Virus record (IMG/VR): IMGVR_UViG_3300031111_000026 | Location: 1 to 33,106 of that record | Strand: one strand, 5' to 3' | DNA length: 33,106 nt | Source: a virus | In this document: piece after piece, positions 74-33,106 of the stretch | Layout of the letters: each line of letters starts with the position of its first letter | Position numbering within the stretch: the first letter of the stretch is position 1 | Position numbers and translations under genes: made by a program | The notes under the pieces: model-generated | What the model saw: the letters and a program-made list of their open reading frames with translations, nothing else | Databases searched by the model: none | Told to the model about the DNA's origin: nothing

Positions 74-87
74 GTCAAGTCCTTGAC
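74..87. promoter_or_regulatory. Perfect palindrome overlapping the first -35 box (operator candidate)
   Basis: GTCAAG-TC-CTTGAC is a perfect 6+2+6 inverted repeat. Its right half is the -35 region of the promoter that reads into the tRNA and nucleotide genes, and its left half reads as TTGACA on the minus strand. It could be an operator for a repressor or activator, or simply two back-to-back -35 elements. The minus-strand -10 partner is poor (around 50-56), so a true divergent promoter is less likely. Confidence 0.4.
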
Positions 88-111
88 TCAAAAATAAAAT
101 CATGTTATCCT
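83..111 (+). promoter_or_regulatory. Sigma-70-like promoter with extended -10, start of left arm
   Basis: TTGACT (83-88), a 17-nt spacer, and TATCCT (106-111) preceded by TG at 103-104, which gives an extended -10. Transcription would start near 118, a few bases before the tRNA at 124. It is the only good promoter upstream of the ThyX-like and nrdJ genes, so it probably drives the tRNA and the first operon together. Confidence 0.6.
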
Positions 112-3317: not shown

Positions 3318-3345
3318 TTGACTTTTGTAAAAAATCTGCTATACT
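3318..3345 (+). promoter_or_regulatory. Sigma-70-like promoter for the second left-arm operon
   Basis: TTGACT (3318-3323), a 16-nt spacer and TATACT (3340-3345), preceded by CC as in the promoter at 83 (shared CCTTGACT). The predicted start near 3351-3352 leaves a leader of about 48 nt with a GAGAGGAGGT ribosome binding site before the TTG start at 3399. Confidence 0.65.
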
Positions 3346-12395: not shown

Positions 12396-12999
12396 ACCCT
12401 TGCTAGGGGCGGGGCTTAAAAACGCTAAAATCTCCATTTTGGAGCCTTCTCATGCCAAACAGGTATGGAATGTAGATGATTATCTGAAAGTTGTTCCCAA
12501 AGCGTTTGTAAAAAGCTGGAGAGCACACCTTGTTCAATTCTATGAGCCGCTACTTCCAGAAGGGGGAATTGGTATAGATACAGGTGTCAATATGGGGTTG
12601 GCATTTATCATGTCTGAGGATGTCGCATTCACGTTGGGGCTTACGCTAAATCGCAAACCTTTTGATTCTGTACAAGTGATGCGGTTTATCAATAACATCC
12701 CTACTGTGTTTCCTGACCGACTTCCTAAGAAAACCCCTGTACTGGTTGAAGGAGCGGCGTATGGTGCGAAGGGGCAACAAGCCTTGCTCGGTCAAATTCG
12801 TGCCGCTTTGTTGTTAGGGTTCGACCAGAATGGATTTGAAACTGTAATTGAAATGCCGCCACTATCAATTCGCAAACGTTGTTTTGGTAGTGCTAAAATC
12901 AAAGCATTAGATTTTTGGGAAAATGACAGAAGCATGAGACCAGTTTGGAAGTCGCATGAAGCAGACGCCCTGAGCATGGCGATTGTGGCGGGTATATAA
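12388..12999 (+). CDS. RuvC-like Holliday-junction nuclease
   Basis: 203 residues from the ATG at 12388 with AAGGAGGA nine bases upstream; a longer reading from 12319 would sit inside the recA-like gene and is rejected. It shows the RNase H-fold acidic set: D64 in GIDTG, E121 in VLVEGAAYG followed by KGQ..LGQIR, and D193 in HEADALSMA. PPLSIRKRCFG before the last acid matches the RuvC segment PxxVK. It should cleave branched DNA in recombination or before packaging. The gene lies directly behind the RecA-like ATPase, and its stop is shared with the start of the homing endonuclease (TAATG). Confidence 0.75.
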   Translation: MYEPLLGAGLKNAKISILEPSHAKQVWNVDDYLKVVPKAFVKSWRAHLVQFYEPLLPEGGIGIDTGVNMGLAFIMSEDVAFTLGLTLNRKPFDSVQVMRFINNIPTVFPDRLPKKTPVLVEGAAYGAKGQQALLGQIRAALLLGFDQNGFETVIEMPPLSIRKRCFGSAKIKALDFWENDRSMRPVWKSHEADALSMAIVAGI

Positions 13000-15082: not shown

Positions 15083-15107
15083 TGGAGGCTAACCAATGAC
15101 CGAGCAT
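15082..15107 (+). repeat. 26-bp direct repeat, copy 1 (leader and first codons)
   Basis: It begins ATGGAGGCTAACC and ends ATGACCGAGCAT, and is perfectly repeated at 15334-15359, 252 bases away. It carries the ribosome binding site GGAGG, the start codon and the first codons of the downstream gene. In this copy the leader part is untranslated. Confidence 0.9.
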
Positions 15108-19115: not shown

Positions 19116-20363
19116 TTAATTTTCCTTTACATAATTAGAATACTCTTCCCAATTTGCTAAGTCGTAATAATACCTTAGCGGGAAAGTTTCTAATCCAAAT
19201 TTTTGAATTGCTAGATTAATGGCGTCGGTGTAATTATCTATTTTTACGCTTTTCCAATAATCTACTACTTCTTTACTCCATATAAGAGTTCCCCAAGCCC
19301 TGTATGTTCCTTGCTCTAATTTTACTTTATTTACCACTTGTCTGTCCAATAACACCCCAAACCGTTCAGGTATTTTTGTTTCGAAAACTCCCAAATAAAA
19401 AGGGTTTGTAAGAACTTCTGGAAAGGCATTGACTGATGGGATAATTGTATCTGGCATGGAAAACAAGTTATATTCATAGCTATAGGGGAAAGAGGTTTTT
19501 ATAGCTCCCCAAATATCCTGCTCATGTTTTTGTAGGGAAAAGGCTATATTATAAGGAAGATGCTGTGTAGCCATAATGTGCTGAGAAATTTTTTCTGGGG
19601 ACGTTATAATAAGATTGGCGTCACAGTCGAGTGTTTTAATCGTTCTTTCTAATAGCCATTCTTTTTCTCCAATAGGAAGTAATTCTTTTGCAAATCCGCC
19701 CCATCTAGAGCCTTTGCCTGCGGCGGGAATAATGCCCATACGAGTAGTCTCAAGGGAGTGTTTCTTCTGTAAATATTGTTTGTTGTTTGTCCATGCTTCA
19801 AGCTGAGAATTTTTTATAGTTTTTCTATCTTTTTCTAGATGAGCTAATCCGAATAATTTTCTATCAATAAGATTTAGCGGAAAGCCCGCCGCTACTGCTC
19901 GTAAAGAATAATCAGCATCTTCATAATACATAGGTGCAAAGTGCTCATCAAAATTACCTACAGTTTTCCATAATTCAGGAGAGCCTACCAAAGCCCAACT
20001 ACTTAGAAAAGAATGCTCACTAATTCCCCTTATACAAAAACCGTTGAGACTGGAAGCTTTCAATAGGTCTTCGTTTAGTGGATGTTCTACAATAACGTCA
20101 TTATTGACAGGTAAAATCCATTCAATTCTTTCAAACCCAAGGGCGGTTTGTATTCCGATGTTTAGGGCTGATGGAAAGGGAATAATTTTTTCTGAACGCA
20201 CTTTTTTTGTTACTGTTGGGTGTTCGGGATAAGCTGGAATTGAGCCATTATCTACCAAAACAACTTTAGCTGTGGGTTCATGCTTTGCAATAGAAGAAAG
20301 AAAGGGAAGAGTAAATTCTTCCCATTCATTTATTCCAATAATTACAAAACACAAATTATTCAT
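19116..20363 (-). CDS. Fused GT2 glycosyltransferase and sugar-1-phosphate nucleotidyltransferase
   Basis: 415 residues in two parts. Residues 1-205 are a GT2 domain: LVDNGS (36-41), LPVNNDV (84-90) in the DxD position, and GNFDEHFAPMYYEDADYSLRA (the acceptor signature). Residues 208-415 begin MGIIPAAGKGSRWGGFAKELLPI, the nucleotidyltransferase signature with Gly-rich loop, R220 and K226, followed by FSMPDTII (D305) and a late WG motif. Such enzymes load NTP onto a sugar 1-phosphate. The fusion could make and use its own NDP-sugar. It overlaps the small upstream gene by 8 bases and abuts the endolysin, inside the tail/lysis region. The donor and acceptor are unknown. Confidence 0.82.
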   Translation of the reverse strand: MNNLCFVIIGINEWEEFTLPFLSSIAKHEPTAKVVLVDNGSIPAYPEHPTVTKKVRSEKIIPFPSALNIGIQTALGFERIEWILPVNNDVIVEHPLNEDLLKASSLNGFCIRGISEHSFLSSWALVGSPELWKTVGNFDEHFAPMYYEDADYSLRAVAAGFPLNLIDRKLFGLAHLEKDRKTIKNSQLEAWTNNKQYLQKKHSLETTRMGIIPAAGKGSRWGGFAKELLPIGEKEWLLERTIKTLDCDANLIITSPEKISQHIMATQHLPYNIAFSLQKHEQDIWGAIKTSFPYSYEYNLFSMPDTIIPSVNAFPEVLTNPFYLGVFETKIPERFGVLLDRQVVNKVKLEQGTYRAWGTLIWSKEVVDYWKSVKIDNYTDAINLAIQKFGLETFPLRYYYDLANWEEYSNYVKEN

Positions 20364-20583
20364 AGGCTAATAAAGCTTGTAGTTCAGGGTCATAAATACT
20401 AATAGCTACCCCAACATCAGGAGGAGCTTCTCGTTCGATAGAAGCGGAGGCATTAGCGTCAGGGTCATAATTAGCATTTGCCGCTCCACTTACTTCTGAA
20501 TAAGAATAAAGGTCATAAGCTGTCTTATCTACTGTATAACCGTTATCCATACTTGTTCCAACTGGAATATATCCTAAAATCAT
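20356..20583 (-). CDS. Small tail-region protein, 75 aa
   Basis: It starts in a TAATG overlap with the upstream gene. It is acidic and rich in Tyr, Asp, Ala and Pro (NYDPDANASASIEREAPP), mostly disordered in appearance, with no membrane segment. Position suggests a minor virion protein or tail accessory factor. The function is unknown. Confidence 0.6.
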   Translation of the reverse strand: MILGYIPVGTSMDNGYTVDKTAYDLYSYSEVSGAANANYDPDANASASIEREAPPDVGVAISIYDPELQALLAYE

Positions 20584-21539
20584 TATGCACTACTCCCACC
20601 AAGACGTTGAAATAGTCTTTCCAACATTGTTTCTTGACTTGTTTGTAAGTCTTGTTTGTCTTTTTGCTCATTTACAGATTCAATAAATCCAACGGAAGGC
20701 TCTTCGATTAGATTGGATTTTTTGTTCGCCTTCATAAGAAAGGCTCCTTCATTTCTGAACCATTCTCCTGCTGAGAGTAGCCCTTCTTTTACCGTCTTTC
20801 CCTGATTGTCTCTAATACGTTGTTTAGGGTCATAAGTATTTGCCCAATATTTTACAAGCCGTGAACGACCAGCACTAGGTGGATTAACTGGTACAGAAGT
20901 TAAAACTCTGCTTGCTGAGTAGCTTGCATTGGGTGCTTTCCAGCCAGTAGTAACCGACGCCGCTCCCGCTTTATCTGATGAACATATTTTGTACCGAGGT
21001 CCGGTACCCGGCCACCATGTTTGTATTAGTCTTGCTGTTTGTCCTATTTCTGTTGGTACGTTATCGTTTGAGCCGTCTCGTTCAGCTTCAAAATCTACTA
21101 CCAATTGAGTTTCTTCAGCACTAACAGTAATAGTTGATTTAACAATTTCATCAGGTTGAGTGTCTTCCGCTTCCGCAGGAGTTCCAAAAGGGTCATCCTG
21201 ACTAACGTCTTCATATAATAAAAGGCACATCATCCCCGCTAATACGCTGCCGCTCCAATTAAATGTAGTAACATAAGCCCCATCTGGAGGATTTAGTAAA
21301 TAAAACAATTCACCGTAAAAATCCCTGTCGGCGTTCTTGTTACGAGTTGTACCCGGAACACGAGTAAAGTCTAAAGCAAGCCCACCCGCATCGAAAACAA
21401 TGCTTGTAATTCTGTCCGTAGTATCCTCATAGCCTGTCCATGCAAATAAACATTTATTTTCTCCTGAAACTGTAATAGAACATGGTCGAGATGTGCCATA
21501 TCTATTAGTTTCGTATCCAGAACTAACGTATGAAGGCAT
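20583..21539 (-). CDS. Putative distal tail or host-binding protein, 318 aa
   Basis: Mostly beta sequence in two similar-sized parts: residues 15-125 contain SITVSGENKCLFAW, SIVFDAGGLALDF and YLLNPPDGAYVTTFNWSG, a beta-sandwich pattern seen in several phage structural proteins. The C-terminal 80 residues are charged and helical (KDKQDLQTSQETMLERLFQRL), a possible coiled coil. Its place at the distal end of the tail gene run favours an adhesin or baseplate-type role. The exact family is not recognised. Confidence 0.6.
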   Translation of the reverse strand: MPSYVSSGYETNRYGTSRPCSITVSGENKCLFAWTGYEDTTDRITSIVFDAGGLALDFTRVPGTTRNKNADRDFYGELFYLLNPPDGAYVTTFNWSGSVLAGMMCLLLYEDVSQDDPFGTPAEAEDTQPDEIVKSTITVSAEETQLVVDFEAERDGSNDNVPTEIGQTARLIQTWWPGTGPRYKICSSDKAGAASVTTGWKAPNASYSASRVLTSVPVNPPSAGRSRLVKYWANTYDPKQRIRDNQGKTVKEGLLSAGEWFRNEGAFLMKANKKSNLIEEPSVGFIESVNEQKDKQDLQTSQETMLERLFQRLGGSSA

Positions 21540-22393
21540 TATCCAATAACCTCTGACGGAGCAGATTCTTTGAAGTTCAAAACTCTGCCCTCAGTCATAT
21601 AAAGTAACCATCTAGTATTGTTTTGGTCTCCTAGCTTTGCGATGTCTTCTACAAGATTTAAAATTTTTCTGTCCGCATCCGTGTCTTTGTTAACTGTGGT
21701 AGCGTTTCCGTCATAAGAATAGCTTGCTACATATTGAGCATCATCTACAATGTCTTCAATCTGTGCTGAGGCTCCTTGTGTTCCACCACTAGTATAGTTA
21801 TAAAGTTCCCACCCCAAAGTATAAATATATCCACGAGAAAAAATTTCGATAGAAGGGTTGCCTGAGCCGCTTCCACGTTCAATAGAGGGAGTAGGAAAAG
21901 CAATTTGGTTCAAGGCTGTTTGAACTGCTTGGTCTGCAACTGCTAAGCTGGTTAGCTGACCACCGCCATAAACTCTCGCCTTCGTTCCATACCGTGCTAC
22001 ACTATTTGCATTGGTCAATTCTGTAGAACGCTCAACAGCATCATCGCCATCATAATCTGACCGCATAAGAATAGTGTTATACATGCTCTCTAAACTGATT
22101 GTTAGCTTATCTGGAGGAAGGTTCAATACCAGTTCATATACCATGCCTTCGTGCAATATTTGAGACCCATAACCGTATGCAATAAACTCTCTGCCTAACC
22201 CATTCTCAAAAAGGTCTAACATTTTATTCATTGTCATAGAAGTAGTGAAAGAAGCTGTCCAAAATCCTCCCATTGCTCTATTATCGTCTTGATAATCACT
22301 AATATCTCCACGGGCGTTGATAAAAGTTTTATTGAATCTTTCATATTCAGTAATTGGATTTTGCTTTATCACAATGGTTTCTGCAACTGACAT
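21539..22393 (-). CDS. Putative tail structural protein, 284 aa
   Basis: It starts in TAATG with the upstream gene. Alpha/beta sequence with polar Gly-, Ser- and Asn-rich loops, and no signal peptide or membrane span; a central YGTKARVYGGGQLTSLA stretch is typical of virion proteins. It lies between the tape measure block and the distal fibre-like gene, so a tail-tip component is likely. No specific family is recognised. Confidence 0.6.
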   Translation of the reverse strand: MSVAETIVIKQNPITEYERFNKTFINARGDISDYQDDNRAMGGFWTASFTTSMTMNKMLDLFENGLGREFIAYGYGSQILHEGMVYELVLNLPPDKLTISLESMYNTILMRSDYDGDDAVERSTELTNANSVARYGTKARVYGGGQLTSLAVADQAVQTALNQIAFPTPSIERGSGSGNPSIEIFSRGYIYTLGWELYNYTSGGTQGASAQIEDIVDDAQYVASYSYDGNATTVNKDTDADRKILNLVEDIAKLGDQNNTRWLLYMTEGRVLNFKESAPSEVIG

Positions 22394-22677
22394 TAAATTT
22401 CCTTTGTTTGACCGTCTAGTGCTTCTGCAATTGCTGTAGCTCTAGCTTGCAAGTCTGTTTTTTCAATTCTGTTTGCATCTACTTCTGCTAAAGTATTCGC
22501 CCGTTTTATAATGTGTTGTCGAATGGTAGCATCGTCCATTTCAACAATAAATTTATCAATAAAATTGGCAACTAGTGTCCATTCTTCCCCATCAGTAGAG
22601 CGTTCTACATCAGAACTGAAAATAAGCTTTTTATTATCTTTACTGACAGTTCCCATAATATTAATTCGGTATAACAT
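22393..22677 (-). CDS. Small tail-region protein, 94 aa
   Basis: It starts in TAATG with the large protein upstream. The N-terminal half is beta-like (LYRINIMGTVSKDNKKLIFSS), and the second half is a charged helix (IIKRANTLAEVDANRIEKTD). The function is unknown; the context suggests a minor tail or assembly component. Confidence 0.6.
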   Translation of the reverse strand: MLYRINIMGTVSKDNKKLIFSSDVERSTDGEEWTLVANFIDKFIVEMDDATIRQHIIKRANTLAEVDANRIEKTDLQARATAIAEALDGQTKEI

Positions 22678-24623
22678 TAGTCACTTCCTCTCAAAGCTGA
22701 ATAACATTTATGTGCAAATACCTCTACTGATAAATGTTGTGCCGCTGTACTCACCAGAGGAGCACTATCCCATGCTGTAGGATAATACTCTAGCAGGAAA
22801 TACAGCCGTGTATTAGCATTTAGATTTTCTAATTCGATGGGTTTTTGCATCAATACCCATGCCTCAGAAGGATGCAGAGTTCCGCCTGCATCTATAATTT
22901 GTTTTTGTGCTCTCCAATCAATCAAACCACTATCAATATCTAAAGCGGTTTTTCCTCTAAGGGCAGAAGAACCATAGTCAAGGTCTGACACAGGGTCATC
23001 TGCTCCTACTTGTGCCTCATCTACTGGCAATAAAATTAAATCCAGAACATCTAGATAGGAACTTCCAGAAGTACGTTCTGCCAATAGTTGAAAGATGACA
23101 TCAACATTTTCTAAGTCATCATCTGCATGTGTTTCTGTAAAAGGTAAGGAGAGAAGTCCTAAATCCAAAGTTTCATATCCTTCGTCTACACCATGTGTAT
23201 ATACTTCTGGAGTAGAAACGTGCGGGTCATATAATGAAGTTCCATACAGAAAGGTTCGTAATTGGACACCAATATCTCCAATACTCCCGCCTGACTGTTG
23301 ACAGCGTAAAAAGGCTAAATATTCACCCTCATAATCTGACAACATAGAAGTTCCTTGAAATTGAATTCTTGACGTTAGAGACGAAGTGCCTGCAAAGGTA
23401 ATAGTTGAACTATACCCGCCCGGTGCTTCTGGATTTGCTACTGCCGCCGCATCTGTAAGTTGAGCAACTTCCCAACCTGTTGGCATATCGTATCCACCAG
23501 CATTTAAATGCGATGAAAAGTTGTCCAGTCCTCTTGATTTTGTTCCGATTAAAATTCGAGAGATATTTCCAAATCCAACCGCCGTTCCTCCTCCCGAATC
23601 TGCTTTTAGGCGAAGCATCAGTTTCATGGGGCTGTCTCCACCAAAAACAGCAGACCCTAATGCCATGTAAGGTTCCTTTTGACAATAAACATCAGTAGAA
23701 TCATCTAAAACGGGTCTAGCAGAATAAGAAGGGGTAGCATCATTTTCTTGAACCCATACCCAATAAGCCTCTACAGAATCAACTGTTTCTACAACCCAAT
23801 CACTTGGAGGTTTGATTGTAATAGCAATGTCTTCATCCGTTTGTTCAAAACACTCTTCAACGGTTTCTTCTGGAAAACAAAGATAGTCCTCACCAAGAGT
23901 AAGAGTCCCATAAGAAGCGGCTGTTTTGTACTTTAAAACCCAATCTGTTGAAGTAAAATTTCCCGCCGTTTTTAGTGTTGGAAAAATAATAGCTTTAGGA
24001 TAACCAATTGTAGAACCAACAATAATAGCGTCTGACTGCGCTACGGTGGAAGGAAATAACGTTCCTCCTGTTAGACTTATATCTGAATAGCCCGTTCCAT
24101 TGTCGTATAATTTAATGTTGGTAATTTCTACATCATCACAATAATTTGCTATATGTCCACTAGCAATAGATGTACCAATATTGCCCGGACGAAAAGAACG
24201 CCAAGGATGTTCACGAATAATCCCTACTCTAAAGCCCAACAGAAGATTCTTTTCAGAAAAGACCATATCATATAGTTTGCCGTGCTCTACATCTTTCACG
24301 CCTTTTACGAGAGCATAGCGGGAATTAGTTTCACCAGAAGTCTTTGCTTCCAAATAAACGGGAGTAGTCTGCCAATTGGTATGAAAATAATCATAAGCCT
24401 TTTTCAAAAGCTTATTCAAAGTCTGCAATTGGGTTGCCGCATTATCATGACCAGAAGCGGTAAGTTTCAAAATCATGTCCTCAAGGACATCTCCAGACAT
24501 CCCAATGCCCATTTCATCCATGAGACTATAGTTGCCAGCACCATCTACAAGATATTGAAATCCTGACGAACTGGTGAGGTCTACTTCTGTTGTACCATCT
24601 GTTAGTTTGTATGTTATTGCCAT
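22677..24623 (-). CDS. Large tail protein, 648 aa (tail tip candidate)
   Basis: A big, beta-rich protein with many Thr, Ser, Gly and Asp residues. Residues 1-130 look like a distal-tail type domain with helical stretch (LQTLNKLLKKAYDYF), and the rest contains repeated beta-sandwich-like segments with LRL and YPT elements. It directly follows the tape measure gene with a TAATG overlap, the usual place of a distal tail or tail-tip protein. No carbohydrate-binding or enzymatic motif was seen. Confidence 0.7.
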   Translation of the reverse strand: MAITYKLTDGTTEVDLTSSSGFQYLVDGAGNYSLMDEMGIGMSGDVLEDMILKLTASGHDNAATQLQTLNKLLKKAYDYFHTNWQTTPVYLEAKTSGETNSRYALVKGVKDVEHGKLYDMVFSEKNLLLGFRVGIIREHPWRSFRPGNIGTSIASGHIANYCDDVEITNIKLYDNGTGYSDISLTGGTLFPSTVAQSDAIIVGSTIGYPKAIIFPTLKTAGNFTSTDWVLKYKTAASYGTLTLGEDYLCFPEETVEECFEQTDEDIAITIKPPSDWVVETVDSVEAYWVWVQENDATPSYSARPVLDDSTDVYCQKEPYMALGSAVFGGDSPMKLMLRLKADSGGGTAVGFGNISRILIGTKSRGLDNFSSHLNAGGYDMPTGWEVAQLTDAAAVANPEAPGGYSSTITFAGTSSLTSRIQFQGTSMLSDYEGEYLAFLRCQQSGGSIGDIGVQLRTFLYGTSLYDPHVSTPEVYTHGVDEGYETLDLGLLSLPFTETHADDDLENVDVIFQLLAERTSGSSYLDVLDLILLPVDEAQVGADDPVSDLDYGSSALRGKTALDIDSGLIDWRAQKQIIDAGGTLHPSEAWVLMQKPIELENLNANTRLYFLLEYYPTAWDSAPLVSTAAQHLSVEVFAHKCYSALRGSD

Positions 24624-26941
24624 TAAGTTCTCCTAAACGTTCTCAACAACCATTGTTTATCGGTTGGGTTTTGAATATTAATTGTAGCTCCGTCAAAAGT
24701 GCTGGAACTCTGTCGTTGTGTTTCATTAAACATGGAAGGTGAATCGGTCATTTGGCTTGCTCCAAAAGCGGAATTACCCAATCCTCTAGCCTCACGAGAA
24801 AAGGTAGAAAAGCCTCTATTCACTCTTCTAAGCTCTGTTCCGATATATCCAAAACCTTCTGCCAAAGGCGGGGGTGAGCCGGGAACAAGCCAACTAGGAA
24901 TACGGGCTACCAACTCCATAAAGTTTTCTGCCATCCTACCAAGCCAATCAACTACGCCCTCTAATGCGGGAATTAGAAAGTTATTTATAGCGTCTGCCAT
25001 GTTTCCAAAAAATGACGAACCAGTTAGTTCTGCAATTTCCGCAAGCTTTTCTCCTAAACCACTAAACCAACCTATAGCGGTTGAAAGAACACCAGATAAG
25101 GCGTCCGCACGGGCAGATAAACCAGAAAAGAATCCCATTAATCCTAAAGCTATAAGTTGTTGAAATGCGAGTAACGCTTCCTCACCAAACTCATCAATTA
25201 CTGTTTTAAGAATATTAAGTGCTATTCCAACTAACAACAAGCCGCTCATAGCTTGGGCAATTTGTAACAGGGAAAAGCCTAATCCCATAAAAACTCCAAT
25301 AACCCCAGACACAGCCTTGAAAGCGAGAAAAGCCGTTCCTAGAGAGAGAATAAATGTAGGAAGGTTAGGATGCTCATCAATAAAAGTTGCTATGCCCTCC
25401 ATGGCACTAGTTAAAAGCCCTATTATACTGACATTTTCAGGAGTTACTGCTTCAAAAAATCCTAACAAAGTATCTTTTAATAAAATCAAAGTATCCACAG
25501 CTAATCCTGATAAGGCATCTGCAAAATGTACAAAAGCATTTCCAAAATCCGCAAAAACCTCCGCTTGGTCTGAGTCTAGAAATCCCTTCATTTCAAGAAA
25601 ACCGCCTGCCGCATCAAAGCCTCCGAGTCCTAAAACGTCAAAAAAGCCCGTTAGCTCTGTCAAGGACGATGCAAGTCTTCCTAAAAATCCATCAGAATAA
25701 GAATCTCCCGCCTCTTCCCCATAAATTCCTAACCTGTGTTCCATTGTTCCAATCTCTGGAAGGTCTGTTGGCATTACAAAGCCAAAAGCCAAACCAAGAG
25801 CACCTTCCATGATGCCTGCAAGGTCTTCTCCAATATCACTAAGAAAACCACTTTCAAGGGTATCCAAAAACACACCAGCTAAGTCTTGAACCCATGCTCC
25901 AAATACTTCTGCGGCGGGCATAAATAAATCAGGCACGGTGAGGTTAAAAATATCTTGTATGGTGCTCATAATACCCGTAATAGAGTATGCCATCTTTTCT
26001 GCCGCACCAGCGAAGTCTTTTTCTGCCATTGAAGCAAAGGCTTCTGCGAATTGTTCCCATGTAATCGTTCCGTCTGCAATAAGACGGTTAAAATCAAGGT
26101 GGTCGTCAATAACTTGACCTGTGGTTTGAGAAAGTTCTTCCAACACAGCGTTGAGGTCAAAACCAGCCTTACCTAATTCCCAGAAGTCACGAGACATGAT
26201 TTTGCCCTGCATTCGAATCTGAGCAAAGTTAAACATCATGCGTTCTGTTTGCTCTGTTGTAGCACCAATACCAGCCGCAAGATTCAACATGCCCTCAGTC
26301 ATCATAAGAGATTCACGAGCGTTGAATCCATAAGCCTGTGCTAGTTTGAAAAGCTGGTTTGTTGCTTGAACTGTGTAGGGGGAGATAATAGCAATTCTAC
26401 GAAGTTCTGCTATCATTGTTGAGGCACGTTCTTGCGCAAACCCCATCATATCGGAAGCTGAATAAAGGCTTGCCGCTTGTTCATCTGTGATTGCTACAAA
26501 TTGCTGTCCGTCTCGATTAACAACCCTAAATCGGTCTCCGATTACATCTAATGAAATGCCCAAGGAATCTAATTGGGTTTGGAAAGCTTCAAGACCAACA
26601 AGAGTTTCTCCCGTAAGAGCATTATGATAGCCCTGTTCCTCTGCAAACTCCATCATGGCGTTGCCAGCATTTTTAAGTTCTCGTGCGGCAAGTGATTCCA
26701 TCTGGATTTGAAGGTTCTGCATTATTCTAGTGGCGTTGAGTGCTTCTGTGCCAAGAGTACGCAAAGCACGCACTCCACCGAGAATGACATCCCTCAATAA
26801 GAATCCACCAGCTATAGTAGCCATTTTTGAGAGAGCATTCCCGGTAGAATGTGATTGTGACCTAAGTCTGCCTAATTTATTTTCAGCGTCTTTTGTATCC
26901 GCTCTAACACGGAGTAAAAAGTCAGCAATACCTTGTGCCAT
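24623..26941 (-). CDS. Tail tape measure protein
   Basis: 772 residues. The N-terminus has charged helix with ADTKDAENKLGRL, then the tape-measure core: ISPYTVQATNQLFKLAQAYG, LNLAAGIGATTEQ and GKIMSRDFWELGKAG, followed by GTITWEQFAEAF, as in the TMP family. Hydrophobic helices at about residues 526-580 and 597-605 are the usual membrane-penetrating part. The C-terminus (SSSTFDGATINIQNPTDK) fits the tail-tip end. Its length would set a tail of roughly 100 nm by the usual rule of about 1.5 angstroms per residue. It starts two bases after the end of the frameshifted chaperone product. Confidence 0.9.
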   Translation of the reverse strand: MAQGIADFLLRVRADTKDAENKLGRLRSQSHSTGNALSKMATIAGGFLLRDVILGGVRALRTLGTEALNATRIMQNLQIQMESLAARELKNAGNAMMEFAEEQGYHNALTGETLVGLEAFQTQLDSLGISLDVIGDRFRVVNRDGQQFVAITDEQAASLYSASDMMGFAQERASTMIAELRRIAIISPYTVQATNQLFKLAQAYGFNARESLMMTEGMLNLAAGIGATTEQTERMMFNFAQIRMQGKIMSRDFWELGKAGFDLNAVLEELSQTTGQVIDDHLDFNRLIADGTITWEQFAEAFASMAEKDFAGAAEKMAYSITGIMSTIQDIFNLTVPDLFMPAAEVFGAWVQDLAGVFLDTLESGFLSDIGEDLAGIMEGALGLAFGFVMPTDLPEIGTMEHRLGIYGEEAGDSYSDGFLGRLASSLTELTGFFDVLGLGGFDAAGGFLEMKGFLDSDQAEVFADFGNAFVHFADALSGLAVDTLILLKDTLLGFFEAVTPENVSIIGLLTSAMEGIATFIDEHPNLPTFILSLGTAFLAFKAVSGVIGVFMGLGFSLLQIAQAMSGLLLVGIALNILKTVIDEFGEEALLAFQQLIALGLMGFFSGLSARADALSGVLSTAIGWFSGLGEKLAEIAELTGSSFFGNMADAINNFLIPALEGVVDWLGRMAENFMELVARIPSWLVPGSPPPLAEGFGYIGTELRRVNRGFSTFSREARGLGNSAFGASQMTDSPSMFNETQRQSSSTFDGATINIQNPTDKQWLLRTFRRT

Positions 26942-26943
26942 AG

Positions 26944-27392
26944 TTAGGAAGCTTTTCCTTTTCCGTCCAGAACTGCCATAATCTTAAACACGTCAGTAAC
27001 TGGAATTTTGTCTATCTCAGAAGGTAATGTACTTAACTCCACAGCGAGCAGAATTCTAATTGCTTCCCAAGACAGTCCGTCACCACCAAACTTTAAACTT
27101 TTGTAGACGGACTTTGAGAGTTTTTTGAATCTTCAACCAATGACGTCATTTCCTGTTCAAACGCTTTTTGCAAGTCAACATAGTCTAAAACACCAAGCTT
27201 ACCAAGATTTTCTGGGATTCTAAGGTCAAGGTCATCATTTGCTGTACCTTCCCATTTTACGATAATCTTAGCTAACATGCGTCTAGCTTCGTCTTCTGTC
27301 ATTGTTTTTTCACTTCCGTCTTTGTTCTCAGCATAAAACTCCTGAAACTCATCATAAGTAAGACGGTTGAAGTCAAGCTCATAAGAAGCCAT
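26944..27392 (-). CDS. gpGT-type tail assembly chaperone, -1 frameshift product
   Basis: The first 91 codons are those of gpG (27392 to 27120); at the slippery site AAAAAAC (27126-27120) a -1 shift opens a reading frame that runs to the TAA at 26946-26944, adding 58 residues that begin LSKSVYKSLKFGGDGLSW. The predicted product is 149 residues. The extension has no start or ribosome binding site of its own, ends two bases before the tape measure start, and is the part that recruits the tail tube protein in the lambda system. The position between major tail protein and tape measure is the standard one. Confidence 0.8.
27093..27392 (-). CDS. gpG-type tail assembly chaperone
   Basis: 99 residues with a strong site (AAAGGAGGTAATGT). 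It is acidic and helical (DFNRLTYDEFQEFYAENKDG, then ARRMLAKIIVKWEG). It is the short form that is made without frameshifting; it ends 27 bases beyond the slippery site in frame 0 (stop 27093-27095). It should coat the tape measure during tail assembly. The family is defined more by position and frameshift than by sequence. Confidence 0.8.
   Translation of the reverse strand: MASYELDFNRLTYDEFQEFYAENKDGSEKTMTEDEARRMLAKIIVKWEGTANDDLDLRIPENLGKLGVLDYVDLQKAFEQEMTSLVEDSKNSQSPSTKV
27120..27126 (-). other. Slippery heptamer for programmed -1 frameshift
   Basis: On the minus strand the sequence reads A-AAA-AAC with AAA and AAC as zero-frame codons 90 and 91 of gpG, the classical X-XXY-YYZ form. The -1 frame after it is open for 58 codons. 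It is the only such site at this locus. Confidence 0.85.
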
Positions 27393-27413
27393 ACATTACC
27401 TCCTTTATCTTAT

Positions 27414-27842
27414 TTAGTATTGTGCTGTTCCAGCATAAAGAAGCGTTCCACTCTTCTGGAAAGAAATTGTATATTCCACAACATCATCATACGGATATTC
27501 TGTTGAAATGGACTGTACAATTGCCGCAAACCCACGTTTGGGATTTCCAGCGGCAGTTCCTTGCGGGGCATAGAGAAGAGTACCACTAGTACCTTCTGGC
27601 ATAGCCGCCTCAAGACCTGTGGCGAGAACACTTCCTTGGTCAAGAACAGTTACTTCTGCCGTACCATCTTTTAGTCGAGATGTGTAACTTTTATCTGTCT
27701 CATCTCCTGCTGTAACATCAACCATATCTGCTTCTCTATCTACGGAAAGAGAGCGTTGGTCTCCCGTTAGAAGAATCGTGCCTGCGGGACAAATAAATTC
27801 AGCATAAAGGTTTTTACCTGTATAGCGGTTGGCTATCGTCAT
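27414..27842 (-). CDS. Major tail tube protein
   Basis: 142 residues with AAGGAGA upstream. It has the tail-tube pattern: an early strand AEFICPAGTILLTGDQRS, then VDREADMVDVTAGDET with a following LKDGTAEVTV, and a late EYTISFQKSGTLLY. The size is small but normal for siphovirus tube proteins of the lambda/TP901 fold. It should polymerise around the tape measure. It is placed just upstream of gpG/gpGT. Confidence 0.85.
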   Translation of the reverse strand: MTIANRYTGKNLYAEFICPAGTILLTGDQRSLSVDREADMVDVTAGDETDKSYTSRLKDGTAEVTVLDQGSVLATGLEAAMPEGTSGTLLYAPQGTAAGNPKRGFAAIVQSISTEYPYDDVVEYTISFQKSGTLLYAGTAQY

Positions 27843-27859
27843 TTAAAATCTCCTTAAAA

Positions 27860-28276
27860 TTATGCAGTACCTTCAACGTGGATACGATAAAGTCTACCCA
27901 CGTGGTACATGATACTTCCACCACCCAATGCTTCTGCAAAGTTCAAATGCCCCATTTCATAAGTGGCATAATCAGCATATCCATCAGAAACATTCAGGTT
28001 TGCGTCATCTAAAACGTCATGTACTGCCTCTGCAATGTCTAATCCAGTGAGCATAGAACCTGAGAGAGCTTTTACTGCGTAAGTAACAACGTGCTCTTCT
28101 CTTGGAGTTCCATGCGTATTACCTCCACCCTGTTTGTGAAAAATAACAACAGGGAGCGTACAATCCGGGGGAGCCACACTATTATAAATTCTAGGGTTTG
28201 CAGTTCCCCCCACTAAATTAGCTAATGTTGTATCTCCGCTCAGTGCGGAGTAAAGTGCAGTATCAATTGATTTCAT
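27860..28276 (-). CDS. Tail terminator/completion protein (DUF3168-like)
   Basis: 138 residues beginning MKSIDTALYSALSGDTTLANLVGG and then RIYNSVAPPDCTLPVVIF, the DUF3168 pattern of gpU-like proteins that cap the tail tube. No Shine-Dalgarno sequence precedes the ATG: the sequence is TAAAATAAAACTA-ATG. A consensus promoter lies just upstream, with the predicted transcript start at or next to the A of the ATG, so this gene may be translated from a leaderless mRNA. It heads the tail gene run. Confidence 0.85.
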   Translation of the reverse strand: MKSIDTALYSALSGDTTLANLVGGTANPRIYNSVAPPDCTLPVVIFHKQGGGNTHGTPREEHVVTYAVKALSGSMLTGLDIAEAVHDVLDDANLNVSDGYADYATYEMGHLNFAEALGGGSIMYHVGRLYRIHVEGTA

Positions 28277-28283
28277 TAGTTTT

Positions 28284-28311
28284 ATTTTACCGTTTCAACC
28301 AGTTATGTCAA
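28284..28311 (-). promoter_or_regulatory. Consensus sigma-70 promoter for tail genes (leaderless)
   Basis: On the minus strand: TTGACA (28311-28306, perfect), a 16-nt spacer and TAAAAT (28289-28284, five of six). Seven bases then separate it from the ATG at 28276, so transcription should begin at 28277-28276. The whole element fits in the gap between two structural genes. Confidence 0.75.
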
Positions 28312-28313
28312 GC

Positions 28314-28790
28314 TTATCTAACTCGTATAACTGTCCGTTCAAAAATTAGTTTGTCTTGATACTCTTTAATAAAAGAATCTTTCAAAGAACTTCGTTTTTC
28401 TTTTTCTAATGCAGGAATAGCAAAGGGTCTTGCAGGTTTTTTCATCGTTCCTAATTCAATATAAGTAGCGTAATGTGCTAACCAATGAATATGAACAGTG
28501 TTTTTGTCTGGAATTAACTTTCCTGCAAATCTGGCGTTTGGTCGTAATGCTTGTGCCTCTGTTCTGCGACGTTCAAAATCTCCATAATTTCCACGAGTAT
28601 AAACAGTGCCTGATGTTTCCAAAGCTCCAGTATCTATAGGGGGTTCGGCTGAATCTCTAACTTCTTTTCCAAAAGCATAGAGAGCGTCCTGAGTTTTGGT
28701 TCCAAACCTTTTTAAAAGGTAAGAAAATCCTTCTTCCAATTCAACATCTACCAAAAGCCATGTATCTTTAACTGAGGCTCCTCTAGACAT
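28314..28790 (-). CDS. HK97 gp10-like tail-completion or neck protein
   Basis: 158 residues from the ATG at 28790 (TAATG overlap with the upstream gene); an upstream in-frame start at 28835 is rejected. PPIDTGALETSGTVYT, WLAHYATYIELGTMKKPARPF and AIPALEKEK match the HK97 gp10 family (DTGALxxS and the EfGTxxxpArPf motif), which joins head and tail. It is the last gene before the internal promoter. Confidence 0.85.
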   Translation of the reverse strand: MSRGASVKDTWLLVDVELEEGFSYLLKRFGTKTQDALYAFGKEVRDSAEPPIDTGALETSGTVYTRGNYGDFERRRTEAQALRPNARFAGKLIPDKNTVHIHWLAHYATYIELGTMKKPARPFAIPALEKEKRSSLKDSFIKEYQDKLIFERTVIRVR

Positions 28791-29179
28791 TATGGAGACA
28801 CCTTTGAAAGCGTCGCTCTGGTAGACGCCTTCCATGATTTGCCGGGGTCTACTGCAACTACTTCATACGTTTCACCATTACAAACAACTCTATCTGTGAT
28901 TTCTACTGTCTGGTCATGGGCTACAGTAAGACGAAAACCACTATTGGCTTTTACAACATCAGAAAAACCACCAAGATACTCAAACGCATTTTGCATGACA
29001 ATTTCAGGGTCTATGCGGCAAGGAACATTTTCAGCCCTTGCGGAGTAAGTTCTTACGGGTTCTCCTACAGCGTTATTTGTAATAACAGACTGTTGAATGG
29101 TGCAAGTATCAGGAAGTAATTCTTCAACATCACTTCTAATTGTAGTTAGCTCAGTATCAGAAAGTCCAAGAGTATCCAT
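28790..29179 (-). CDS. Head-tail connector/stopper protein (head closure)
   Basis: 129 residues. An early LPDTCTIQQSV with GEPVRTYS, and a late FRLTVAHDQTVEITDRVVCNGETYEVVAVD, match the small beta-barrel stopper fold (SPP1 gp16/HK97 head-closure type). It sits in the standard position between the adaptor at 29182 and the gp10-like protein. Confidence 0.75.
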   Translation of the reverse strand: MDTLGLSDTELTTIRSDVEELLPDTCTIQQSVITNNAVGEPVRTYSARAENVPCRIDPEIVMQNAFEYLGGFSDVVKANSGFRLTVAHDQTVEITDRVVCNGETYEVVAVDPGKSWKASTRATLSKVSP

Positions 29180-29181
29180 AA

Positions 29182-29787
29182 TTAATTCCCGTCATCTAGG
29201 TCAGTGCGTGCAATTTTTGTAGAGCGTAATGCAGGAGACCAACCACCAAGCTCTTTCAGATTTTTAATTTGAGCTTGAATAGCTCCTACTCGCTGACTGC
29301 GCTTGACCTTCATATTATCTGTTTCCCAATCTGGCTGAAACGCTATTTGGGTATTCCATGAAACTAAAACATCCATTGCCGCCTGATATGGATTATGTAC
29401 CCAACCAGTTACAAAGACTTGAGACCCTTTTTGGTTTGAAGAAAAAGTCAGAAACCCATCTTCAGGAGAAAAAGTATAAGCGGCTGTTCCATAAATACTT
29501 CCAGAAGAGTTTGTAACGATAAAATTAGCTGTTCCTGTAGAGTCATCTTCTACCCAACCATAGCCAATTTTAGCATGACGATAAACAGCAGAACCAGACC
29601 CATCCGTAGACAGTTCAGGTTCAAAAACAACTTCATGTCTGGAAAGCCTTGCCCTGCGAGTATCCAAAATGCGCTCTATTGTATCATCAGAAAAGTAAGA
29701 AATTGTTCCTACTACAAATTCTGCCGTTCCCGCTCCAGAGAGACGCCGTACCTCATCAATAATGTAACTAACTCCACTTCGTGCCAT
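29182..29787 (-). CDS. Head-tail adaptor-like protein, 201 aa
   Basis: It starts with GGAGGA upstream. The N-terminus (YIIDEVRRLSGAGTAEF, then SDDTIERILDTRR) is the helical start seen in adaptor proteins; the middle is a beta-rich insertion (YGWVEDDSTGTANFIVTN...GTAAYTFSPEDGFLTF) and the C-terminus is helical (VKRSQRVGAIQAQIKNLKELGG). Position between major capsid block and stopper supports an adaptor; the beta insertion is larger than usual. Confidence 0.65.
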   Translation of the reverse strand: MARSGVSYIIDEVRRLSGAGTAEFVVGTISYFSDDTIERILDTRRARLSRHEVVFEPELSTDGSGSAVYRHAKIGYGWVEDDSTGTANFIVTNSSGSIYGTAAYTFSPEDGFLTFSSNQKGSQVFVTGWVHNPYQAAMDVLVSWNTQIAFQPDWETDNMKVKRSQRVGAIQAQIKNLKELGGWSPALRSTKIARTDLDDGN

Positions 29788-30951
29788 TTAATCCTCCAAA
29801 TAATTACGTCTCCCCTCAGTCCTTTCGTATGCTTTTTTAAGCGCAGGTTTCCAGTATTTATCTATAATTATATCAGGATGATAATTTTCTTCAACCCATT
29901 TTGAAGCCTCTTTGCCCTTCCTGATTCGTTCTGATTCAGACATACCATAGAAATAATTCATAGAGTTAATCAATTCATTAACATTAGGAATTTTTTGGTA
30001 TGAATCTTGATTTGTATAAACAAGTTGTCCATCTACAGCAAGTCCGTAATGACATAGTTCAGGCATAGCTGTCCAATCCGTGACAATCACAGGAAGTCCA
30101 CTTGCTTGCGCCTCGATGATTGGAACGCCAAAACCTTCTCCTCTTGCAGGGTTCATGAAAACATCAGACGCCGCATAAATACTATGAACTACATCAGTTG
30201 GTTGTCCTATAATGTAATCATATTTATCGGAAAATATGAGCTTATCATTAGGAATACCAATGTTTTTAGCCATTGTTCTGAGATTAATCCCCCAAGAAGC
30301 GTTATAGTCTGTGTGAATGTACAACAAAGCATCTGTGTGCTTTTTTTGAAACTGATTAAATGCTTTGAAAACTTCAGCAAAAGACTTTCTTGAAGGATAG
30401 CCTTTGTTAGCCGCTACCATTGTTACCACAAAACGGTCATCCCAACCAAACATTTTTCTCAGGTCTTTACGATTAACTGGCTTTAGATATTCTAATTCAA
30501 CTCCATGTGGGGCGTACAAGGGGTCAAAACCAGCTTCTAACAGTTTTTTCTCCCCAAACCTAGACATCGCTAGGGGTACTGGATTTCCGTTTGTTAGACT
30601 TTCAAATACGGGTTTTGGAATAGGGTCATGGTCAATAGGTATCCACGCTAACCAAGGTAGCTTTTTTACGATAGCAGGATTTAGTACCCAAATATCCAGT
30701 AGTGTAATGAGTAAGTCTGCTCTAGAAAACTTACAATGGGCGGAAATTACGTCATTTCCATAGCTGTCTGCGTAACCCGGTAAAACTAAAACGTCTCCTA
30801 GTTGAAGGCGGTTCCCATTCAACCCCCAAAAAGCGGATATTGTTACTTCATAATCTTCTAACTTACTGATACGCTCAGTAAAAAGCTTTGTCTGAACACC
30901 ATATCCAGTCAAAGCCCATGGAGCATTAGAATGCCATAAAATTCTTTTCAT
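29788..30951 (-). CDS. GT4-type glycosyltransferase inside the head-tail module
   Basis: 387 residues from the ATG at 30951 with AGGAGG upstream. The GT-B fold shows an N-terminal ILWHSNAPWALTGYGVQT with the glycine-rich loop, a central VVTMVAANKGYPSRKSF strand, and the C-terminal donor site ARGEGFGVPIIEAQASGLPVIV with the EX7E acids typical of GT4. It has no membrane segment. It lies after a terminator that follows the capsid and decoration genes and before the adaptor, so it is not a tail-fibre neighbour; it may glycosylate a virion protein or act on host or phage glycans. It is one of four sugar-transfer genes here. Confidence 0.85.
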   Translation of the reverse strand: MKRILWHSNAPWALTGYGVQTKLFTERISKLEDYEVTISAFWGLNGNRLQLGDVLVLPGYADSYGNDVISAHCKFSRADLLITLLDIWVLNPAIVKKLPWLAWIPIDHDPIPKPVFESLTNGNPVPLAMSRFGEKKLLEAGFDPLYAPHGVELEYLKPVNRKDLRKMFGWDDRFVVTMVAANKGYPSRKSFAEVFKAFNQFQKKHTDALLYIHTDYNASWGINLRTMAKNIGIPNDKLIFSDKYDYIIGQPTDVVHSIYAASDVFMNPARGEGFGVPIIEAQASGLPVIVTDWTAMPELCHYGLAVDGQLVYTNQDSYQKIPNVNELINSMNYFYGMSESERIRKGKEASKWVEENYHPDIIIDKYWKPALKKAYERTEGRRNYLED

Positions 30952-30981
30952 TTTCCTCCTTTCAAGTTCAGACAAAATAAA

Positions 30982-31000
30982 GGGGAGGACAAGCCTCCCC
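30982..31000 (-). terminator. Terminator after the capsid and decoration genes
   Basis: On the minus strand GGGGAGG-CTTGT-CCTCCCC is a 7-bp GC stem with a 5-nt loop followed by TTTATTTTG. It should reduce transcription from the capsid operon into the GT4 and connector genes, keeping capsid product high. Confidence 0.8.
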
Positions 31001-31016
31001 CATAATTTGTTATTTC

Positions 31017-31421
31017 TTAGGCGTTAGTTTTTGCGCCCAATCCGTCAACATACTCAATCATAACGGTAAGCATAGCAGGAGCAACTGCGCCAGTTTCATC
31101 ATAATTCAACACTAGATAATCACTAGCGTCAAGTCTGCCTGAACCAGCGGTGATTGCCATCTGCTTAGCAACATTGTCAGTCCAACCAGCCGTACCACCT
31201 GCTGTACCAGACATGACTGTAGTCGCTGTGCCAGCCGCCCCACCATCAATTAGGTTGATTTGAATGTAGTTTGCTGTACTGCCAGCAACATCGCCAGCAA
31301 TCGCAACATACGCATCTTCAATAGTAATGGGATGGTCTGACGGAGCTTTCATAATGACAAGTTTTTCGTCTGCGGTAGGGTCAGGAATAACGACTGAAAG
31401 AGTTTTCTTATGAACAATCAT
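31017..31421 (-). CDS. Decoration-like or minor capsid protein, 134 aa
   Basis: AGGAGA precedes the start. It is a beta-rich, Gly/Ala/Thr-rich protein (YVAIAGDVAGSTANYIQINL, MSGTAGGTAGWT), with a size and position right after the major capsid gene that fit a head decoration or stabilising protein. The family is not recognised with certainty. Confidence 0.65.
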   Translation of the reverse strand: MIVHKKTLSVVIPDPTADEKLVIMKAPSDHPITIEDAYVAIAGDVAGSTANYIQINLIDGGAAGTATTVMSGTAGGTAGWTDNVAKQMAITAGSGRLDASDYLVLNYDETGAVAPAMLTVMIEYVDGLGAKTNA

Positions 31422-31432
31422 TATATTCTCCT

Positions 31433-32278
31433 TTACGCAGGTGCGGTAGCGTCATGAGTAATAGACTGACCAAAAGCGTCACGTCTCACACCATGAGCGT
31501 ATCCCGCACTCATATTGAGTTCCCAAGCACGCAACGAAGCATCACGTTCCGGTTCCATAAGGGGAGCCTTGCGACTATCGAAAGCAAGAGCCTGAGGGTT
31601 GAAGATAGCTCCAACTGCGTCATCACTATCATCAACACTGATATTCGAAGAAGTGAACCACTGTACGTTGAGCCAACTGCCAACGAAGAACGAGCGGAGA
31701 GCCTCATTTGCCACTTCGCCCTGAAAAGCGTAGTGAGCGGCAGGAGTGCCTAGTTCGTTCCAAATGTCATGCCAACCGTAAGGATGGAGCACAACGTAGA
31801 TGGGGTTCGGTGCATTTGCATTGCGGAGCTTCGAAAGACCTGCCGCAACATTGTCCAAGGTCAGAGAGTTCCCAGCCGTTCCGACGCCTGCCGTAAAGCT
31901 AGAGAAGTTTCCAACCAAGTCCGTATCAATCTTTGTTCCAATAGCATTACCGAGTTCCAAAGAAGCGTCTCTTCGAGCGTCATCTGGGTCGGTTTCAATG
32001 CGTCTATCTGTCAACACAATCTGCGCCATAACCTCACCGGGGGTAAGGGTGGCTTCGGTCGTCTTATTGAAGGTCGTAGGATTTGAAAAATCCTCACCTT
32101 CAGCAACTGTTTCCGCAGAAACTTCAGGATAAATCGAGATGTAGCGACTCATCCAGCCACGGGCTGAATAGTTCGTTACAAGCTGAGTCATCAAGTTCTG
32201 TTCTCGTGCGACAAAAAGAGCATCTTCATAAATACTATTGAACAGACTGTTAAGGTCTGAAACTTTAGAATATGCCAT
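31433..32278 (-). CDS. Major capsid protein, HK97 fold
   Basis: 281 residues with AGGAGATAAA upstream. A helical N-terminus (FNSIYEDALFVAREQNLMTQLV), the ETVAEGEDF segment with following TLTPGEVMAQIVLTDR strand, and a late YVVLHPYGWHDIW with GAIFNPQALAF fit the HK97 E-loop, P-domain and A-domain. It has no obvious delta domain of its own because a separate scaffold gene precedes it. It is the most certain structural protein of the head. Confidence 0.88.
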   Translation of the reverse strand: MAYSKVSDLNSLFNSIYEDALFVAREQNLMTQLVTNYSARGWMSRYISIYPEVSAETVAEGEDFSNPTTFNKTTEATLTPGEVMAQIVLTDRRIETDPDDARRDASLELGNAIGTKIDTDLVGNFSSFTAGVGTAGNSLTLDNVAAGLSKLRNANAPNPIYVVLHPYGWHDIWNELGTPAAHYAFQGEVANEALRSFFVGSWLNVQWFTSSNISVDDSDDAVGAIFNPQALAFDSRKAPLMEPERDASLRAWELNMSAGYAHGVRRDAFGQSITHDATAPA

Positions 32279-32306
32279 TTTTATCTCCTATAAGTATAAG
32301 CATAAG

Positions 32307-33044
32307 TTATTCTTTATCACTTAGTACCTGTACGCCACGTCCTTCCCAAAAATCACTACCTGAGCGTCCAAAGTATTCCGCTTTGCGGTCTTCGTCCGAC
32401 TTACCAAGCTTCTTTGTAGGGGAAGCAGGATTCGTGGCACTCGTACTAGATACCTTCGATGGTTTCGAAATCATCCAAGGATGTTGTTCTTCAAGTGCCT
32501 CTAACGCCTCTGCTACGCCGGAAACTTGTCCTGCCTCCAAATCAACTTCGAAGTCATTATCAGAAACAAGCTTATAAACTACTTCCGGGTCAGCAAACTT
32601 ATTAGCGGCAAGCTTAACTACCTCTGCTTTGATAAGGGCTTTTTGCGCCCGTGTCTGTGACGATGTTGAGGTTTCTTTAAGCTGTACATTTTCTTCTTTG
32701 AGAGATTCAAGGTCTGCTTGAATTTTCTCAAGTTCAGTCATTTGTCCTCGTTTGAACTCAGCGTACTCAGCAAGAGACGCCTTGAGTTCTTCGGTAGATT
32801 CCACTCCAAGGTCTTTTAGAAAGTTTTTTGTTGCAACTTCTTTAGCCTCAGTTCGAACCTTACCAATTAGTTCATTAACTTTTTCTTGGCTAATGCCCTC
32901 TGCTTTACCGGAATTTTTACCCGCTTCCGTAGCGGTCTCATCAGGGGTATTTTTTGAAGTGGGGGTTTTAGACTGTTTGTTTTCCGCCATTTCAGGCGTT
33001 TTGCCCTCTACCTTCTCCACTTCATCTGTATTTGTTTTAGCCAT
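32307..33044 (-). CDS. Capsid scaffold protein
   Basis: 245 residues, highly charged, Lys/Glu- and Ser/Thr-rich. The N-terminal 50 residues look disordered (KTPTSKNTPDETATEAGKN); residues 50-160 form a long coiled coil (LEKIQADLESLKEENVQLKE); and the C-terminus (EDRKAEYFGRSGSDFWEG) is a basic-aromatic capsid-contact region as in scaffolds of the GP20/DUF4355 type. Placed just upstream of the capsid gene, where scaffolds sit. No protease domain was seen. Confidence 0.82.
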   Translation of the reverse strand: MAKTNTDEVEKVEGKTPEMAENKQSKTPTSKNTPDETATEAGKNSGKAEGISQEKVNELIGKVRTEAKEVATKNFLKDLGVESTEELKASLAEYAEFKRGQMTELEKIQADLESLKEENVQLKETSTSSQTRAQKALIKAEVVKLAANKFADPEVVYKLVSDNDFEVDLEAGQVSGVAEALEALEEQHPWMISKPSKVSSTSATNPASPTKKLGKSDEDRKAEYFGRSGSDFWEGRGVQVLSDKE

Positions 33045-33106
33045 TTTTCTCCATTTCTCTCTAGATTATTTAGTTTTTGTAGGGAATTATCCAGATAATT
33101 CAAACC
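33008..33106 (-). CDS. Possible 3' end of a further head gene, running off the window
   Basis: On the minus strand a frame is open from the right edge to a TAG at 33010-33008 (translation ends ...NLERNGEKWLKQIQMKWRR), overlapping the scaffold gene by 37 bases. It would be the tail of the next upstream head gene, which by order should be portal or protease. Only 32 residues are visible, so this may be a chance open frame. Confidence 0.25.
   Translation of the reverse strand, partial: GLNYLDNSLQKLNNLERNGEKWLKQIQMKWRR
33084..33101. promoter_or_regulatory. 18-bp palindrome upstream of the scaffold gene (operator candidate)
   Basis: GAATTATCCAGATAATTC is a perfect 8+2+8 inverted repeat, about 40 bases upstream of the scaffold start. 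It lies either in an intergenic space or in the end of the upstream gene. It could bind a dimeric regulator or be a weak hairpin; no -35/-10 pair of good quality overlaps it. Confidence 0.45.

Follow-up and report, generated by a model that had tools for sequence, protein, structure and literature searches.

We analyzed a 33,106-base virus record (the window), in which a tail terminator (TT) gene without a Shine-Dalgarno (SD) sequence lies on the minus strand between the neck and major tail protein genes, the same gene order as in its relatives. The features that our argument draws on are the following:

28314–28790, minus strand: neck or tail-completion gene (PHROG 5, E = 9e-11)
28277–28313, minus strand: neck–TT gap of 37 nt, with the entire candidate promoter inside it
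28306–28311, minus strand: -35 hexamer TTGACA, 2 nt past the neck gene stop
28290–28305, minus strand: 16-nt spacer, without a TGn extended -10
28284–28289, minus strand: -10 hexamer TAAAAT, one base off TATAAT
28283–28277, minus strand: the 7 nt AAAACTA between the -10 and the ATG at 28276–28274
28276–28277, minus strand: predicted transcription start, placed from the spacing
27860–28276, minus strand: TT gene, 138 aa, without an SD (PHROG 123, E = 2e-5)
27414–27842, minus strand: major tail protein gene with SD TAAGGAG (PHROG 1407; SD energy -9.2)
30981–31001, minus strand: GC-rich hairpin and then TTTATTTT, after the decoration-like gene at 31017–31421
83–111, plus strand: comparison site TTGACT-17-TATCCT, just upstream of tRNA-Thr(TGT) at 124–196

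Read along the minus strand, the TT junction runs TTAGATAAGC TTGACA TAACTGGTTGAAACGG TAAAAT AAAACTA ATG, which bears out the layout given in the first-pass annotation (TTGACA, 16 nt, TAAAAT, 7 nt, ATG). That annotation had also called the promoter perfect, a description that needs amending: the hexamers match the sigma70 consensus at 11 of 12 positions, the -10 being one base off, and the spacer is 16 rather than 17 nt, within the 15–19 nt of sigma70-type promoters.

We identify the TT gene by its match to PHROG 123 together with its place between the neck and major tail protein genes. The neck ORF extends from 28835, with its likely start at ATG 28790, which has an AGGTG SD. Because M1 of TT aligns with relatives in both alignments (five-member and six-member), ATG 28276 is very probably the true TT start. 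Its anti-SD energy is -3.1, compared with a median of -7.6 over 51 gene starts, and it is one of 3 among the 51 that are weaker than -3.5; the others are 3752, where GGAGGT is present 14 nt away, and 20363, which overlaps its upstream gene. TT has the sole start of the 51 that lacks both a usable SD and an overlap with its upstream neighbor, and the absence of an SD noted earlier at this gene is confirmed by these values. A-rich sequence precedes the ATG. We found no folding signal beyond shuffles in the 100 nt around the TT start (z +0.4 to +1.3), and a hairpin at this start as a regulator was dropped, the folding energy there being within the shuffle range. Over its first 60 nt, the predicted message folds slightly more strongly than shuffles do (z -1.6).

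The major tail protein gene that follows TT is probably the main beneficiary of the predicted promoter. Beyond it, the tail chaperone gene (27093–27392, minus strand) ends in a slippery A AAA AAC at 27126–27120, and a -1 shift at 27126 opens 58 codons that end at 26944, immediately ahead of the tape-measure start (26941); this site is likely a programmed frameshift of the G/GT type, and another frameshift candidate, at 27310, was discarded as wrong. The head-tail structural module also contains a glycosyltransferase-like gene (29788–30951, minus strand; PHROG 2170, E = 3e-31) that is common to many relatives and shifts position among them (L011, L015). Elsewhere in the window, two small neighboring genes at 15096 and 15348 share an identical leader and first codons (GGAGGCTAACCA ATGACCGAGCAT), which suggests a duplication.

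Between 20000 and 33106, the TT-junction promoter is the sole site with 11 or 12 consensus matches, and it is the sole exact match in the window to the pattern that uses TAAAAT as the -10. Promoter-like sites in the same interval are not in excess (24, compared with 27.4 in shuffles), so that strength alone proves little and placement carries the argument. By a sigma70 weight matrix, whose frequencies are general background values, the TT-junction promoter ranks 6th in the window. Three of the top six sites lie wholly within gaps, as against 2.4% of 28-mers; the other two in gaps are at 83–111, before tRNA-Thr, and at 3318–3345, in the gap before a gene. Strong matrix sites also occur inside genes. 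The site before tRNA-Thr suggests that sigma70-type host promoters are in use. When the 37-nt neck–TT gap was shuffled, none of 5000 shuffles reached the real promoter score, and the 40 nt before the TT ATG, shuffled 20,000 times, matched it with start-adjacent spacing 5 times. For promoters at this spacing, TT scores 12.4 and the next best of the 51 curated gene starts 7.9, and among 1280 ATGs only one other has a better one (9997, plus strand), which is not a curated gene start.

To place the junction in a wider context, relatives were gathered from IMG/VR by capsid, tail-tube and TT searches. In the phage collection, there was no DNA-level similarity to the window and no tblastn match to TT, and tblastn of the neck protein gave one weak match, Oceanospirillum phage GJ44. 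The capsid alignment includes three MAG contigs (Eisenbacteria, Anaerolineae and Saccharibacteria), too scattered taxonomically to assign a host. We ruled out L001 as a TT relative, its match being 53 residues long with no other window gene matching. In L018, the capsid gene (443–1179) matches as two segments separated by about 735 nt, which suggests an inserted element such as an intron. Junction-by-junction scoring left out L031, where TT was not found, and L030 and L019, where the neck gene was not found. The sequences of L004 and L005, among the capsid relatives at 85–91%, stop short of the neck–TT junction.

Two sister lineages, L022/L025 (pairwise identity 99%) and L023/L024 (99.8%), have TT proteins 53–54% identical to that of the window. 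Their neck–TT gaps are 61 nt in L022/L025 and 47 nt in L023/L024, and both contain an extended -10, TGATAAAAT, whose end is 18 nt from the ATG and which has TTGAAA (L022/L025) or TTGGTT (L023/L024) 17 nt upstream of it. The predicted leader is about 12 nt. These TT starts are SD-less as well, with SD energies of -3.1 to -3.2 in all promoter-bearing lineages. The best promoter at a structural junction is the neck–TT one in the window (12.4) and in L022–L025 (13.5 or 10.1), compared with no more than 8.6 at the other structural junctions examined in these genomes and 3.0–6.0 for antisense scores in the same neck–TT gaps; in L023 and L024, a higher-scoring site (11.8) is found outside the gap. 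Shuffles of the L025 gap reach its promoter score in 4 of 5000 cases. For L023/L024, with their poor -35 (TTGGTT), shuffles of the AT-rich gap are as good in 111 of 5000. L023 and L025 share 24 of the 27 nt that begin with the extended -10 and run up to the ATG, compared with 63% at four-fold sites (266/422; P = 0.003 for a 27-nt stretch picked after inspection). The strictly shared core of the gap element is TAAAATA, near which lie the inverted repeats CAGTTAT/ATAACTG in the window and AATAGACC/GGTCTATT in L022/L025. As a recurrent phage motif, the conserved leader of L022–L025 was rejected, since it was found once each in four already known contigs. The candidate promoter lies in a gap upstream of a gene, is beyond chance there, and recurs in relatives, in two sister lineages only.

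In L006 with its near-copies, in L018 and in L030, the TT start comes 6 nt after the neck gene, overlaps it by 4 nt or directly follows a TAA, and the TT SD energy is -5.3 to -8.1. The neck–TT junction of L006, L018 and L030 has neither the promoter nor the gap that bears it elsewhere, which suggests that promoter presence goes with SD absence at this junction. Of 65 loci with a TT match, 54 distinct starts were left after dropping those with no start candidate in range or with repeated sequence, and at least 9 was scored by 4 of these 54, whose start codons were chosen by SD and homology and are therefore biased towards SD-bearing starts. Three of the four are the sisters. The fourth, L032 (9.9), has TAAAAT 3 nt before its ATG and counts neither for nor against the promoter, being too near the ATG and too distant a relative. 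In the tree, the grouping of L006, L018 and L030 is fully supported and that of the window and its sisters only at 50%, so that one group may have gained the promoter or the other lost it; at 50% support, a shared origin of the window and sister promoters is no more than a possibility. L006 also carries a 12/12 sigma70 consensus at 12473–12446 (minus strand), antisense and at the start of its major tail gene. It may be chance or an antisense promoter, and it indicates that strong matches can arise by chance.

Upstream of the neck–TT junction, the decoration-like gene lies downstream of the capsid gene, and the hairpin that follows it (31001–30981) is likely a terminator or a 3'-end hairpin. 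Such a hairpin comes after this gene in the window and in each of the 17 relatives scored (L004, L006–L011, L013–L016, L018, L019, L021 and L023–L025; one further relative was too short), with z from -1.7 to -6.9 and the weakest in L019, L008 and L016 (z -1.7 to -2.6). The stems are unrelated in sequence between lineages. Several relatives have no T-run, and in those the hairpin may serve as an mRNA 3'-end element instead of an intrinsic terminator. Conservation of a hairpin past the head genes suggests a reason for the tail genes needing a promoter of their own.

The first-pass annotation had proposed a separate start point for the tail genes, and the proposal gains from an equivalent promoter in two sister lineages and none in the SD-bearing relatives. 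By these comparisons, a separate start for tail transcription is well supported, and the promoter before the TT and major tail genes is probably real. Speaking against the promoter, late genes under an unregulated host promoter would be transcribed early. As for leaderless translation, the first T of the window's -10 lies 13 nt before the ATG, the start-adjacent spacing of leaderless genes, and TT has no SD. The seventh base after TAAAAT is an A (28277), with a T at -1, and the ATG opens at the eighth (28276), so the predicted 5' end is 28277, which gives a 1-nt leader, or 28276. This spacing is not conserved in relatives: the sisters' leaders of about 12 nt mean that leaderless spacing is under no visible selection. 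Strict leaderlessness of TT is plausible for this phage only. If anything, the slight folding of the first 60 nt speaks against efficient leaderless initiation, and the missing SD would also be compatible with deliberately weak translation of a low-copy protein.

Leaderless messages are a known kind, and so are sigma70 promoters within phage operons. The leaderless message of lambda cI comes from PRM. As predicted for TT, this is a phage gene with a promoter that places the 5' end at the AUG; cI, however, is a regulator, whereas TT is a late structural gene. PMC9031893 names cI as a leaderless mRNA. In bacterial leaderless genes, the first T of the -10 peaks about 12 nt before the start (PMC3160421), and leaderless genes with a start-adjacent -10 (TANNNT) are described in Deinococcus-Thermus, Actinobacteria and others in PMC3160421 and PMC12340547, the latter reporting that such a -10 drives leaderless genes in Deinococcus. 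TT resembles them in the position of its TAAAAT, its ATG start and its lack of an SD. It differs in being one phage gene amid strongly SD-led neighbors, in having a full -35, in a spacing that relatives do not share, and in being a candidate predicted from sequence. In Listeria phage CKA15, transcription start and termination sites flank the tail chaperone operon, and a termination site comes after the tail tube gene (PMC12282133). There, too, tail genes form a separately initiated unit in the structural module, measured in CKA15 and predicted in the window; the word 'leaderless' does not occur in the portion of the CKA15 text available. We found no leaderless tail gene described in the literature searched, as far as its accessible text goes, which is not proof of absence.

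We propose that transcription starts afresh at a working sigma70-type promoter within the late structural operon. TT, the major tail protein, the chaperone and genes beyond would thereby have a source of expression besides read-through from the head genes, whose transcription the conserved hairpin after the decoration-like gene would end. The proximity of the -10 would make the transcript begin 0–1 nt before the TT ATG. On such a transcript TT would be a leaderless message with a 5'-AAUG end, probably translated inefficiently, and the major tail gene would be read from its own strong SD. Tails contain few TT copies and many tail-tube copies. If the hairpin cuts read-through, the many-copy tube gene would gain from the new promoter while SD-less TT stayed low. 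We consider this whole, a tail-restart promoter with a leaderless TT and a strong-SD major tail gene, the best explanation and hold it with moderate confidence; its promoter activity, exact start, leaderless translation and copy-number reason are the parts that we infer.

Alternatively, the promoter may be real and serve the tail block while TT is made mainly from read-through mRNA, from a weak SD-less start that uses the A-rich region upstream or reinitiation after the neck gene, across 37 nt, and that keeps low-copy TT low. The sisters are SD-less with a leader of about 12 nt, so SD loss is independent of leaderlessness, and this, the strong SD retained by the major tail gene and the A-rich stretch before the ATG all fit such a reading; the window's spacing, however, fits known leaderless genes (PMC3160421), and 37–61 nt is long for reinitiation. 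We regard it as possible, though rather improbable.

It is unlikely that the site is a chance promoter-like sequence in an AT-rich gap and that the tail genes are transcribed by read-through alone. The number of sites at 20000–33106, no higher than in shuffles, the strong sites within genes of the window and the 12/12 antisense site in L006 are what chance would give, but the gap shuffles (0 of 5000 for the window, 4 of 5000 for L025), the promoter at the same junction in sister lineages and the conservation of the extended -10 and the bases up to the ATG speak against it. We give very little credence to an identity of the gap element other than a sigma70 promoter, for example a late promoter specific to the phage or an RNA element (an operator or processing site): the strictly shared TAAAATA core with inverted repeats nearby would suit this, yet a Pfam scan of 20 window proteins turned up no RNA polymerase, there is no folding signal in the 100-nt region at the start, and the -35 is well placed in the window and in L022/L025.

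Our favored explanation, the tail-restart promoter with a leaderless TT, can be extended only tentatively to the statement that this phage group has a promoter between head and tail genes which, in the window's lineage, lies so near the ATG that a late virion gene is leaderless. If this is true, the promoter and the SD-less start would together fix the ratio between tail terminator and tail tube copies. SD-led, roughly 12-nt-leader and leaderless versions of one gene would then exist within one phage family and offer a natural series for how leaderless initiation evolves. At this one junction, the comparison runs from an SD without a promoter-bearing gap (L006, L018 and L030) through a promoter with a short SD-less leader (L022–L025) to a promoter abutting the ATG (the window), and it makes leaderless initiation of a structural gene testable with synthetic fragments, for which the phage is not needed.
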